A stretch of 64,000 bases of DNA from Paramacrobiotus metropolitanus. Taxonomy: Eukaryota; Tardigrada; Eutardigrada; Parachela; Macrobiotidae. Positions 35,168-42,542 of this stretch are shown in pieces; the stretch's first letter is position 1, and the number at the start of each line of letters is the position of its first letter. A program made the position numbers and the translations under genes. The notes beneath the pieces are model-generated. The model had not been told where the DNA came from. It saw only the letters and a list, made by a program, of their open reading frames with translations, and made no database searches. The stretch spans positions 248,001-312,000 of the forward strand of contig NW_026570340.1 in NCBI RefSeq assembly GCF_019649055.1, read 5' to 3'.

Positions 35168-38100
35168 CTAATCCCAGCGGTTGAGAACGGTGTCGTCGAT
35201 GTCGAAGCCGCGTCCCGTGTCGTGCCCCTGCCCCTGCCCCTGCCCCTGCCCCTGCCCGTCGACGGCTGCCCGCCCCTGGGCGTCGCGGTTGGCCTGGTCG
35301 ACGCGGATGAGGCAGAAGATGAGGTCGGTGGGGTGCAGGATGAAGTCGCGCGGCGGATTGCAGATGACGAAGCGCTTGGAGGGCGCCACCAGCGCGTCGT
35401 ACAGCGTCATGCGCCGGTACAGGCCCAGGCACAGGAAGCCCCACTTGGACAGCGCCTCCAGCAGCAGCGCGCCGTAGTTCATCTCCTGCAGTGTTAATAT
35501 TCAGTGACCTTTGTTAACTCTCGCCTCACACGCTAACAAAGTCCTTTATTCCAGTATGCTCACCGCGTAGCCGTAGAAGGGGCTGCTGGCCACGCCCAGC
35601 GGAATGTGCCGGATGATGACCTCGTCCTGCACGAAGGCCGCCTTCTCGCCGATCCCTTCCCCACCCAGCAGACCTGCAGCACAACTCGCCGTCAAGACAC
35701 CACATAATCAGCCTGGCTGATGATGGGAAAATGGCACTTGGTAACCCCTTAATCATTAAAACGAATAACTGATTATACAGTACTCGTATAATGGCTCTTT
35801 TATAGCAGCAGCATACAACAGTTTATGCAACAACGCGCACGTATTTATGCCACTTTCACTGCACTGCTGACCACCTGCAGACTGCGGCTGCAGATCTAGA
35901 GTGATAGGATACTTCCATTACAAGCCAACATGCAACATGCTCTGATGCACATATTTTACCAGTTTTCTTATCCTTCAAGTTATTAAGTACCTACATGTAT
36001 TTATGTTGTACAGAGTACAACATTTTTGTGAGGCTACTAATTAATTTACACAATATCCCTGTCACTCGTATATTTTACAATCATAACTCATGAGAACCAT
36101 CCTCAACGAACGACAACATTTTCCCAAAATATTTTCAAACCGATAGCCTATATTCATGCGTTTCATACGTTTTAACTTGTAATATTATAAGCCTGTCAAA
36201 AGTTTTTGAAAATTCCCGATTACTTCCACAAAAACTGGAGAAGACGTCCTCAACGATAATTATTTCCGAAATTATTTTGAAGGAATTACCACTGCATAGT
36301 TAATTAGAATAACAGTTTTCCGGAATACTTCCTAACTTTTAAGAAGGCTGTGGTGAAAGTTTTCTGAAAAGTATTTGACGAAACGTATATTGTGCAGCTG
36401 TAACAATAAGGTCAGTCCTGTTGGGACAAGGAACTGGAAAAGCGCTGTTAACTGCATAATTATAGTAACTGTATTTAAGCAAGAACGTAAGGTACTCTTT
36501 CTGAACAGTATGCGAGGGCGTGGCCACATCACATAAGGGTCATACCGGCGCCTTCGGTGACGATCTTCTCGACCTCCTCGCAGTGCTTGCCGAAGACCAG
36601 CGTGTTGAAGATGTTGTACATGGAGGGATTGAAGAAACTGCAGATGGTCAGGGCGTCCACGACGAAGGAGGAGAAGGCGCGCCCGCAGGCGTACACGTGC
36701 GAGAGGTGCGGCTCCAGCACCAGCCGCGGACTGCGGTCGTACAGGTCCAGGTAGCGCGTGTTGTTCAGCACGCCTGCAACGGGCAATTAACCGGCGACAC
36801 CAGGTGTAAATGACCATCATCAGTCGCGATCGGACAGTTGCGGCGGAGATATACATATACGTACAGAGCTGCGTGATGACGGGGATGTGGCTGCCCATGA
36901 GGTGGCCGACGGGGAAGCGCTCCAGCAGGCTGGACGTGGCCTTCCAGTCCATGTTGCCGCTCAGCTCCTCCTCGATGTTCACCTGCCGGCCCCCGCCTGC
37001 CCAAAGGTCATCAGTCCAATTATAGATAGTCGTAATATTGTGAGTACAGGTTAAACAACCACTGCTGACCTTCGTCGTCGCGGATGGCGAAGCATAATTC
37101 CTTCTCCGAGAATGACATGTCGCGGACGTTCTGTGTGGCGATGATGACCTCCTTGTCGATGAGACTGTGGTGCAGACCCTTGTACAGCAGGCTCTCGTGG
37201 ATGCCCGGCGCGCCCACAATCACCACCATGCGCGCGCTCTTCACGCTCACGGCGCGCAGATCCACACGGTTCAGGGCGTCTCCCTGTACAGAGATTTAAC
37301 CAAATTAGGACGCAGTTAATCCCTTGGAAGGAAAATCCGTCACGGCAACCGCATGCCCTAAGTCTAGTGTCTACCTTGACGACGGTCAGCTTGGGCATGT
37401 TGGTCAGCCACATCCACTCCTTCTCCATAAACTTCGGATCACTGCAACCAGTGCAAAGCAATCAGTTTCCGCTTTATGACGGTCAGCCTGATGTTATATC
37501 GGCCGGAGTACCACAGTATGACGATCTCGGCCAGTCGCTCCGGCCGGACGGTGCTGCTCCGTAGGGGCCACACGAAAGTGTGTAACCCTACAAAATTTAT
37601 TATACAAATATATGTATCTATTAATAATTAATATAGATACATGTACCTACATTATACGAACTACATATGTACCTACATTATAATTATGTACCTAACTACA
37701 GAATACTTCTACAATAGGATGCTACAGATATACTCGTACACATGTTAAATGAATTTAAAAATACATAAATTTGTATGTAATTACCTATACTTCTACCTAT
37801 ATATATAGAGCTAATTAATTTTATTAATATATAATTATGTATAAAGTATAGCTATCTGTGTACGTATATTATACAAAAGTTTAAGTGCTGCCACGAAAAG
37901 TGAATATGTACAGACCGATAGGTTGTGAGTCGGGTTTGGTGAGGATGCAGAGAACGATGTGGTCTTGCCAGTCGCGCATGGCAGCCTCTTGTCGATCCTA
38001 CCAGTCGGAATAATCAGTTACTAACTGCAAATTTGCTACACTCATGAGTCATGAGCACGCCAACAACAGGCCTCACAATGACGATATCGTACAGCCGCCG

Positions 38101-41100
38101 GCCAGGACTCCAGAAGAAGCAGCCGGTGGAGTCGTACAGATAATCCGTCGGCACGTGCTCGTTGTCCAGGTTGTCCAGCGAGGCGGCGGCGCTCAGCGGC
38201 GTGGACGCGGCCGCCGCCTCCTTGGCGCTCTTCCGCCGGAAGCGCAGCGCGGTGGGCGACGCCAGCTCCATGCTTCGCTCCAGGTCGGTGTCAGTGACCT
38301 TTCGACCCCTGCAACGGAGAGAAGGCGCGGTTAACAGCGATCATGATGGATGTAGGAGGCATCTGCACCGTTTGGTTGGAGGATGCGTGGACGCGGACGG
38401 CGTCAGGCGGATGTACTCCCACAACTTGTTGACGGTCTCCGGGGAGAGCGCGTGAGCACGGCGAGCCGCCTCTTCGTCGTAGTAGCTGTCGTCGTCGCTG
38501 TCGGCCTCCTTGGCCGGCTCCTTGGTCGTTACGTTGGCTTTGCCTGTAGGCGCACATAAACCTTATAATTATGTATACGTTGCAAGGAATTACTAGTACA
38601 GAATAACCACGGTGAGACATACTGTCGCACTGGCACTGGCGAATGCTCTTGGGATCGAGGGTGTCGCGGTGGCAGTGCGCACAGTACCTGCAAGCAAGAG
38701 AATTCACAAAAGGTCATCGGCCCCTCGACATGACGAAGGCTGCCTACAGCATGACCGGCGCCAGGTCGGCCACGGTGTCGGCGATGAAGAAGCCGATGCA
38801 GCCGGGAGTGATGCGCACGTCGTCGCCGGGGTTGATCAGCGGGTAGGCGGAGAGGCGTTGGTTCAGCTTGATGGCCACTAGCAGCACGTCGAAGCGCCGG
38901 TAACAGAACCTGCAGCATCAGTATATTTATTTAGCCGGCAGATTCAAATAACGCAGTGTTTGACAGGCTGGCCACTCACTCGGCCAGCTGCCGAAAGGTC
39001 ATCCCCACGAAGGACTCGCTGATGACCCGCGCCGACAACTCCAGGGCGGCACCGCGGCCGTAGTCGCTCTGCCAGGTGCCTTCCCACTGCGAAAGATACC
39101 ATGCAGCGGCTACTTGCTGTACTATCAGCACGGATGTGGCATATGACGGAACCTGCTCGTCTTCCTTGTGGATGCGCGACACGAAGAGGTTGGCCATGAG
39201 CGTGGAGAAGCCGGGCGCGTTGCAGCTCTGCGCCAGCAGACCCAGCCGGATCTCCGCGCAGCACAACACCGCGTCGCCCTTCTCGGCGTTCCATGCCGGA
39301 ATCTTCTGCACGTATTCCTGCGCAGATAGCTCATGTCTTGTCCACGCCCCGGCGCGTTCAGTGAACACAGCAACTTACTTTATTCTTGTAATGTAGAATC
39401 TGTGAAAGACAAGACTTGGCATTAAATGGAACACAGAAATACCGTTGCTTCTCTCATTTCACGATTGCCGCAAGCCAGTAATATAGTTCAAAGTTCCAGA
39501 AATGGATGAATTAGATGGGGCGGGCAAATCGGTTAGCGAGGCATTGAAGGTCCATTAATTTTCATTTCAATTAGTACTGGTACATTTCATTCAATATGTA
39601 GTTTAGCAAGCTTATATATACAGCTAACATTTTACGTATGAACAAGCTTATACCTCGTGTGTGGAGTTTATATATGAAGCGAGCATCTGCCTGCGTAGCA
39701 TTGTACTATTTGCCTGCTGAAGTGTTAACTGGGCAGCGCACCTGGACGAGGACGCGCATCTCGTTGCGGAGGTCCTTGACGGAGACGACGCGCATGACGT
39801 TGATGGCGTCGGCCGAATCCGGTTCGGGGCTCTCCACGTCGGCCAGCAGGAGGACGGCGGCAGCGTCGGCGGCCCGAATGCGGGCCAGATCCCGCGGTTC
39901 CATGACGGAGCCGCGCCGGTACTCGGCGCGGTTGTAATACTGCTTCACCATGCGCTCGGTGTCGGCATCCGGGGGCTGCCTGCAGCACTCGAACACTCGC
40001 ACTTAACAAGCTCTTTTGCAGACAGCTATACGTATCCGCGTTAAGTGGGCAGACGTACTCGCCGAGAATGACCACTCGCACGCGTCGCCCGACATCGCGG
40101 TCGGGATGGTAGAACTCCTGCAGGAAGAGCTTGATGGCGTCGTTCGACACCGTCCCGGACACCACCACATGCCTGCGCAGCAAACACTACTCGTAGGATT
40201 TAGTGCGTAGCAGATTGTACATATATAATTCTAATTTTGTACTTCATTCATCTAAACGTTAGAAAAAGAAAAGCAACGGCCTGGCTCAACAGCACTGAAA
40301 AGCACAACTTACAGGTAGTGTTTGGGAGGTTTGTAGTCTTTATCGTAGTCCGGTGTCCGTTTGACCAGGGACACGATTTGCGGGATCGTGCGACCGATTG
40401 TTGTCTACAGAACAAGCGATGGAACCAAACATATTATTCTACTCAAACCTCGAAATATAACAAGCTAACATGCGCCCTAAATTATTAACAAAATCCGCCA
40501 TTTATTAAAGCGAATTAAAATGTATTAAAATCAGCGAGCAAGAAACGCTGCGTGACTAACGAGTGCGGCCAGTTGGAAGAGGTAGACGGTGAGTTTGCCC
40601 ATGATGGTGGTGACTTTTAGCCCGCTGAGATCGATGAGGGTCAGTCGGCCGTACAAATACTGGAAGCACTTCCAATAGGTCACCGACTGCCCGTTGTAGG
40701 CCTTTTCCGACCACAGCGAGTGGTCGCCGGCGTTCTCAAACTGCAGCACAATAATATTCAACAAGATGCGTGCATGACAAAGGTCACTAGTAAGCGCTGC
40801 AGCCAGCGCCCAACCGAAATGAGCCTACCAAATGCAGGACGCCGGCCGACGTGGTCAGAATGACGACGACCAGCAGGACGAGGTAGGTCAGCTTCAGACT
40901 GCTCTGCTTCTGGAAGAAGCCGCGCTGCGCCACCAGCTCCAGCAGCCACATCAGGTTGTACCAGCGCAGGAAGCTGAAACCTGCGACACAAACAGATGAC
41001 CTCACATTTGGACGCTTCCTTCGATGCTTTGTACCGCGGACGTACCGGTGAAGTAGCGGTTCAGGCAGATACCGCCCACCACGGCCGGGATCACCTGTCC

Positions 41101-42542
41101 GAGCACAAGTGCACCGTTACTTCACTTTACCGGTCAGTAAAATCCGATAGTTATGCTGGTATATATCTCGATACCAGATAATCGACGAAGGAGTACGGGC
41201 TCATCAGCGCGTCCAGTTTGTCGTGCGTCCCTGCAACCTGCCATTAAGAGTAGCCGTGCTCGCATCTACCATTACACAGAGGGCGCTCCGCACCCCGCAC
41301 GAAGGGAGCACCTACTCGAATAATAAGGTAGGCCAGAAGGTAGGCGTTGGCCAGCAGGTCCAGGCACTGCTGCCCGTTGGGCATCGTTCCGCAGATCTCC
41401 AGACTGGGCAGCTGCCTGCACAACGAGTTAGAACGGAAAGGTCACACCTGCGAATTGAGCTGGAGGAGCAGCCGTACTTTGTGACGGACGCCAGGTAGAC
41501 TGCCAGGGAGACCATGGCGCACCCGATGGCCACCACCATCTGCAACAGCGGCCGCCGATTAACTGAGGCGTCTTGCGAACGACCACGTCACCCTTCCCTT
41601 CCCCTGGCGTGATTAACTGCCTACCAGCCAGAAGCCGTGCGTGCTGTTGGGCGAGGTGGCGTCGGCCACCCACTCCTCCAGCTGCGACCGGTCGAACTCG
41701 GTGCGGCCGGTCGTGCTCAGTTGCTTGAGTGCCTATAAGATAACATATATACCGTTTAAGATACCGTTTAGATACATATATACCGCATTTATCTTTCTAT
41801 ATACCGTTTACATGTACAGTACATATAAGCGCGCCGTTGTGTATTAATTAAGGCATACGATAATTTTCTGTATATTCCCTATGACTATAATAATTATTAC
41901 TCCTCGTAACATGAACATATATCTCATGCTCTTCTGACCTCGGTGCGCTGCTTGATCAGCTTCTCCTCCAGCAGGACGTCGGCGCGCACCCGCGCCTGCA
42001 TGTCCAGATCGGCGTCCTCCAGCACCTCGTAGCCGCTACGCGCCCCGCCGTACAACAGACGCCGGTAACGCCGCCCGAAGACGCGCCGGTCGATGGCCTT
42101 GAACAGCCAGAAGAGTAGCACGAACAGCGGCAGCACCAGGCCCACGACGAAGTAGATGCCCTTCAGCGGGATGGCGTTGTCCACGCCGTAGCAGGCCGCC
42201 GGCAGTCTGCAATGAACGCCTTACTACACACGATGCTGGACAGAGGGCCGAGGGGCCCGGATGCACGTACTTGACCGGCTCGCTGGCGTTGTGGCTGGCC
42301 GCGTACAGCTCGGAGACGGATCCCAGGACGGGCGCGGTGGCGGCCGTTGCCCCGGTCAGGTTGTGGTTGTCGTAGAACCACGCGATCATGCGGGCCAGCG
42401 GCGACGCTTCCCAGTCCGCGTCCTGTCTCTCTTCGGCGTCGGAGGAGGAGGACTGGCCGCCTTCCGGTCGGGCGCTGCTAGCGGGAGGCAGGCCGCTGTA
42501 CGGCGCCCAGCGCCAACCGCCCGAGTAGCCGTCGGACGCCAT
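35168..42542 (-). CDS. SLO/BK-like channel protein lacking the K+ selectivity filter, 27 exons
   Basis: Exons (complement): 42271-42542, 41939-42206, 41625-41732, 41478-41539, 41312-41415, 41175-41230, 41046-41094, 40829-40980, 40561-40740, 40313-40404, 40059-40172, 39742-39979, 39379-39399, 39153-39317, 38980-39086, 38748-38909, 38623-38687, 38369-38543, 38077-38308, 37916-37997, 37512-37587, 37375-37441, 37070-37283, 36865-36996, 36546-36773, 35564-35673, 35168-35485. All join in phase to 1282 aa. The order matches Slo1/BK: S0 (YFVVGLVLPLFVLLFW), S1-S4, S5, P region, S6, RCK1 (ADAINVMRVVSVKDL; AEIRLGLLAQSC), RCK2 (YDSTGCFFW; YKGLHHSLIDKE), and the C-terminal block PTDLIFCLI. The pore loop between TYWKCF and MGKL has the normal length but reads LTLIDLSG where BK has TVGYGD. 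The calcium bowl and S4 are also altered. A (GQ)n tail precedes the stop. Two exon borders (38369, 37512) are less sure. The open frame argues for a working protein, perhaps a regulatory or non-conducting subunit. Confidence 0.9.
35222..35258. repeat. GCCCCT hexanucleotide microsatellite in the channel C-terminus
   Basis: About six copies of the 6-bp unit CCCCTG, read on the minus strand as alternating Gly-Gln codons between VDGQ and HDTG. It lies in the final coding exon of the SLO-like gene, past the last conserved block, so copy number changes would alter only tail length. Confidence 0.85.
37588..37915 (-). other. AT-rich intron 20 of the SLO-like gene
   Basis: The 328-bp intron, one of the longest in this gene, holds several near-repeats of TGTACCTACATTATA at about 37640-37700. 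The flanking exons join in phase. No coding signal is seen. Confidence 0.5.

Follow-up and report, generated by a model that had tools for sequence, protein, structure and literature searches.

A tardigrade family of BK-type channel genes in which an aspartate motif stands in place of the K+ selectivity filter

The closest described relative of the gene reported here is Slo1, the BK channel (KCNMA1, slowpoke), with which it shares the S1–S6 segments, two RCK domains, the Pfam families BK_channel_a, Slo RCK and Slowpoke_C, and the Ca2+-site residues D367 and E535. The Slo architecture is common also to Slo2 (KCNT1) and Slo3 (KCNU1), both of which keep a K+ filter. KvS subunits and KCNK7 are paralogues of conducting K+ channels, as the present genes are, and are thought not to conduct alone; the KvS subunits differ from the present genes in that they retain TVGYG. 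We know of no filterless family of 13 genes among the silent or non-functional K+ channel subunits. The open-licence literature yielded one passing remark bearing on BK/slowpoke in tardigrades: Hypsibius and Ramazzottius have a duplicated Ca2+-activated K+ channel, a finding mentioned in the context of anhydrobiosis (PMC5531438).

The window analysed is a 64,000-nucleotide stretch of the Paramacrobiotus metropolitanus genome (contig NW_026570340.1, positions 248,001 to 312,000). Matches to CAHS proteins, at up to 71% identity, mark the animal as a eutardigrade. A filterless Slo1-type gene, rebuilt from its splice sites, lies on its minus strand, with 27 exons, GT-AG boundaries at all 26 introns and one open frame throughout (Table 1). 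Its product has 1279 amino acids rather than the 1282 given by an earlier sequence-only reading of the window, whose exon number and open frame both stand. The Pfam matches of the protein are BK_channel_a, Slo-like_RCK (two stretches in tandem) and Slowpoke_C. The part from S4 to RCK1 matches BK structures in the PDB with 243 bits (E 2.6e-71) and KCNT1 with only 55 bits, and in the tree the gene is nested among Slo1 paralogues. By these measures it is kin to Slo1, not to Slo2, and the kinship seen earlier is borne out by alignment, with Slo1 far above both Slo2 and Slo3. A 349-residue frame upstream (about 45341–44293) was considered as a first exon and rejected, since the gene's N-terminal exon opens with an ATG at 42542 and no Pfam family matches the frame. 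This minus-strand frame has a signal-like start, is rich in Tyr, Gly, Ala and Pro, and is probably a separate upstream gene.

Table 1. Features of the filterless Slo1-type gene, in positions of the window
Feature	Positions	Strand	Basis or remark
Filterless Slo1-type gene	35168..42542	-	ATG at 42542, stop ending 35168; splice model, PDB matches, Pfam
Exons 1-2: N-terminus and probable S0 helix	41939..42542	-	Gene model; S0 inferred from hydrophobicity and position
Exons 3-8: S1-S5	40829..41732	-	Gene model and alignments; S4 with R210 only of R207/R210/R213
Exon 9: pore helix, filter position, start of S6	40561..40740	-	Gene model, PDB alignment
LIDLSG replacing TVGYGD, aa 389-394	40621..40638	-	Sequence and alignments
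Exon 10: end of S6, Arg at the human S317 position	40313..40404	-	Gene model, column comparison
Exons 11-16: RCK1, Ca2+ site D367 and E535 kept	38748..40172	-	Alignment, Pfam
Exons 17-19: RCK1-RCK2 linker	38077..38687	-	Gene model
Exons 20-24: first part of RCK2	36865..37997	-	Gene model, Pfam
Exon 25: Ca2+-bowl region, acidic bowl lost	36546..36773	-	YLDLYDRSPR against FLDQDDDDLPG in sister
Exons 26-27: end of RCK2 (Slowpoke_C) and tail	35168..35673	-	Gene model, Pfam

In exon 9, TYWKCF...LIDLSG...MGKL aligns without gaps on TYWECL...TVGFGD...LGRT of the BK structures. The selectivity filter TVGYG/TVGFG is absent, and LIDLSG occupies its site. That a BK-like channel here lacks the K+ filter was the central claim of the sequence-only reading, and it holds; the six residues had been numbered 392–397 and lie at 389–394, and the accompanying statement that all K+ channels carry TVGYGD-type residues is a slight overstatement. 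Scanning the entire window in all six frames detected no K+-filter motif in or near the gene, in agreement with the claim that no frameshift or alternative splice restores one. A pore lacking the filter's carbonyl cage is very unlikely to be selective for K+.

The related loci were found by a Pfam search of the genome (25 BK_channel_a and 68 RCK matches, counted exon by exon), and genes were predicted with a GeneWise-like aligner using as seeds human Slo1, its letters checked against the PDB, and then the genome's own models. The Slo1 paralogues, massively expanded in this genome, comprise 12 genes with TVGYGD or TVGFGD, two with CNG-like filters and 13 filterless genes, counts that leave out one further pore match at C107:112.9 kb. 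The canonical Slo1 on contig C183 has TVGYGD, a complete bowl and the full set of three S4 charges, and the other eleven genes of its class carry TVGYGD or TVGFGD. The pore match on C107 lies within a tandem cluster of TVGYGD/TVGFGD Slo paralogues (81–132 kb), in which the gene at 81–90 kb is complete with TVGYGD and a neighbouring one lacks the membrane half. The two CNG-like filters read TIGSPD (L017, C14:1302491–1310601) and TIGGSE (L026, C3:425137–432360), resembling the TIGETP of CNG channels. Both genes are open and, like the filterless genes, have an altered filter, but they keep T-I-G and the acidic Ca2+ bowl. They are possibly non-selective cation channels and possibly intermediates.

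The 13 filterless genes form clade A, with five members including the window gene, and clade B, with eight. In clade A the filter site reads LIDLSG in the window gene and at C14:1119487–1126250, LLDLSG at C11:547081–555889 and C11:463914–471761, and WLDLSG in a fifth member, the N-terminal half of which lies at C11:about 17.5–19.7 kb (L021). A C-terminal half (L029, C18:49.7–52.3 kb) is broken at the same intron junction as L021, both breaks being near contig starts, and the two are probably one gene split by assembly or rearrangement. Clade B genes, with sites such as FLDVTS, are located on C295, C46, C103 and C283, with four more on C105; several of their models contain a frameshift, possibly a modelling error. 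The C-terminal half of the filterless gene on C14 also has two almost identical copies elsewhere, at C84:176.5–178.5 kb (L032) and C323:45–47 kb (L033); both are degraded, with stops and frameshifts.

In the IQ-TREE tree of the S4–RCK1 part, all 13 filterless genes lie on one side of a branch with support of 100/98. With the pore columns removed, the group retains 88/90 and clade A alone 98/95; given the value of 88/90, a single origin of the filterless genes is likely, if unproven. In the tree built from the RCK2 half, clade A is found again (90/100), and a joint clade of A and B is neither shown nor rejected. Closest to the filterless genes is the CNG-like pair, which joins them with support of 96/95 in the full S4–RCK1 tree and 79/83 without the pore columns. 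As far as these trees tell, the K+ filter was probably replaced once in the filterless clade. With 13 genes sharing a conserved replacement, they look like old, maintained "silent" channels, not one broken gene.

The replacement has fixed residues of its own (human numbering). Y282, G283, K/R284, D289 and Y305 are present in 13 of 13 filterless genes and Q308 in 12 of the 12 that are readable there, and none of the six was found in the TVGYGD genes. W216 and K/R276 also occur in all 13 and are common to a few canonical genes. Position 317, a serine in human, is K/R in all five genes of clade A and Gln in all eight of clade B. Since the motif residues sit in the pore helix, at the filter position and in S6, the surroundings of the filter were rebuilt together, giving a new pore core: a K/R-x4-D motif with Y305 and Q308 in S6, to which clade A adds K/R317. 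The mean pair identity of segment 283–292 is 0.78 in clade A (0.57 overall) and 0.78 in clade B (0.60 overall), and in both clades none of the other membrane segments compared is as conserved as the pore segment.

The sensors have fared differently in the two clades. R210 alone of the S4 charges is kept in clade A, the window gene reading S, R and N at R207, R210 and R213. The RCK1 Ca2+ site D367/E535 is kept in the window gene and, where readable, throughout clade A. The acidic Ca2+ bowl of RCK2 is lost in the window gene and kept in the clade A members on C14, C11 and C18, so that the RCK sensor which the sequence-only reading took to be retained is present as regards the RCK1 site, gone as regards the bowl, and better preserved in the sisters. 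That reading had noted neither the loss of two S4 charges and of the bowl nor the existence of a family. In clade B, D367 is lacking and the bowl is unrecognisable, which means that the recognised Ca2+ sites are lost. Compared with Slo1, the window gene is thus without TVGYGD, R207, R213 and the Ca2+ bowl, and with K/R284, D289, Y305, Q308 and K/R317. Its branch in the RCK2 tree measures 1.26, against 0.25 for its sister; as it is the fastest-evolving member of clade A, its family has better representatives.

Constraint on the family could be measured in L035/L036 of clade B, the youngest filterless pair whose dS can be measured. Its dN/dS is 0.10, or 0.08 for the pore by itself; the canonical pair L027/L028 gives 0.08. 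The value of 0.10 belongs to this one clade B pair and not to the window gene, for which a dN/dS comparison had been suggested. In an open frame of the window gene's length, neutral drift of as little as 0.1 substitutions per site would be expected to leave about 11 stops.

What, then, might a BK channel without a K+ filter do? We propose, with a probability of about one half, that these genes are an old, selectively maintained BK-type clade of non-conducting, Ca2+-responsive subunits, which would either regulate the Slo paralogues that conduct or work by themselves. The filterless subunits would assemble via the gating ring, conduct nothing themselves and serve as Ca2+-responsive silent subunits, poisoning or tuning tetramers formed with the conducting Slo1 paralogues, of which the animal has roughly 12; alternatively, they could signal through conformational change alone. 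A non-conducting subunit or a retained RCK sensor, the role suggested by the sequence-only reading, is still the likeliest. A regulatory subunit is favoured because positively charged residues lie behind the loop and within the inner pore, which speaks against a flow of cations, and because the gating ring, and in the sisters the Ca2+ sites, are retained. Several observations count against it or narrow it. The replacement loop is strongly conserved, which would be needless for a merely sealed pore; clade B has no recognised Ca2+ sites, so that a Ca2+ response cannot explain all 13 genes; and the window gene evolves fast and has lost its bowl.

The conserved loop could instead belong to a re-purposed pore, in which a ring of four Asp residues at the G289 position turns the BK scaffold into a cation channel, either permeable to Ca2+ or non-selective. 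This is possible, though distinctly less probable than a silent subunit. The Asp is invariant in 13 of 13 genes, and the clade A sequence T-(L/W)-(I/L)-D resembles the TRPV6 filter T538-I539-I540-D541, whose D541 ring binds Ca2+ (PMC5890290). A T-x-x-D motif is present at the tip of the pore loop in clade A as in TRPV5/6, and its Asp may face the pore, but Thr is missing in clade B (VFLD, VLLD), and the ungapped alignment places the Asp on G289, one residue off the TRPV6-like register. The flanking charges differ as well: one would expect cations to be repelled by K/R284 just behind the loop and, in clade A, by K/R317 in the inner pore. The likeness to TRPV5/6 is so far one of motif, not of sequence kinship. 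The CNG-like TIGSPD and TIGGSE of the nearest group would fit a selectivity that changed step by step. In a fuller version of this history, which we regard as rather doubtful, the tardigrade BK filter would have passed from TVGYGD through a CNG-like TIG-S/G to the Asp motif, yielding a 13-gene family on the Slo scaffold with non-K+ selectivity based on an invariant Asp ring.

Somewhat less probable still, and unlikely on the whole, is a membrane Ca2+ sensor or scaffold that is no channel at all, a homotetramer whose gating ring signals to other proteins without any link to conducting Slo. The retention of Ca2+-site residues in clade A while voltage sensing and the pore are degraded would suit such a protein, as would the strong divergence of clade B, which has neither filter nor recognisable bowl. 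However, the entire pore domain is kept, P-loop and S6 included, and conservation of the P-loop exceeds that of the other parts of the membrane domain.

It could also be asked whether the window gene itself, as distinct from its clade, is a relic slowly decaying after a relaxation of constraint, as its long branch, the loss of its Ca2+ bowl and the retention of merely 40 of 64 clade-A-specific columns might suggest. This is very improbable. The frame is intact over 27 exons with all splice sites canonical, and 58 of 69 universally conserved columns are retained. Against its sister the gene has pN 0.315 and pS 0.833; synonymous sites are saturated, so these values allow only the statement that dN is well below dS. 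Neither the broken frame nor the lost constraint of a pseudogene is thus seen, and the earlier judgement that this is not a dead gene is upheld and much strengthened by the 13 filterless genes, their conserved motif, a tree consistent with one origin and the dN/dS of 0.10 in the one measurable pair. An artefact behind LIDLSG (mis-assembly, wrongly chosen splice sites or an alternative pore exon that stayed hidden) has a negligible chance, since the same kind of replacement at 12 other loci, 13 on eight contigs in all, excludes sequencing error and chance, and a search of every frame of the filterless loci found no K+-filter exon.

The family also has a bearing on the physiology of tardigrades: counts of Ca2+-activated K+ channel duplication in these animals would need conducting and filterless genes to be separated. 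Few motifs in biology are as conserved as the K+ filter, and a large, selectively maintained family that lacks it and has fixed a new pore core, with the CNG-like-filter genes as what may be intermediates, is a natural experiment on the BK scaffold without K+ conduction.
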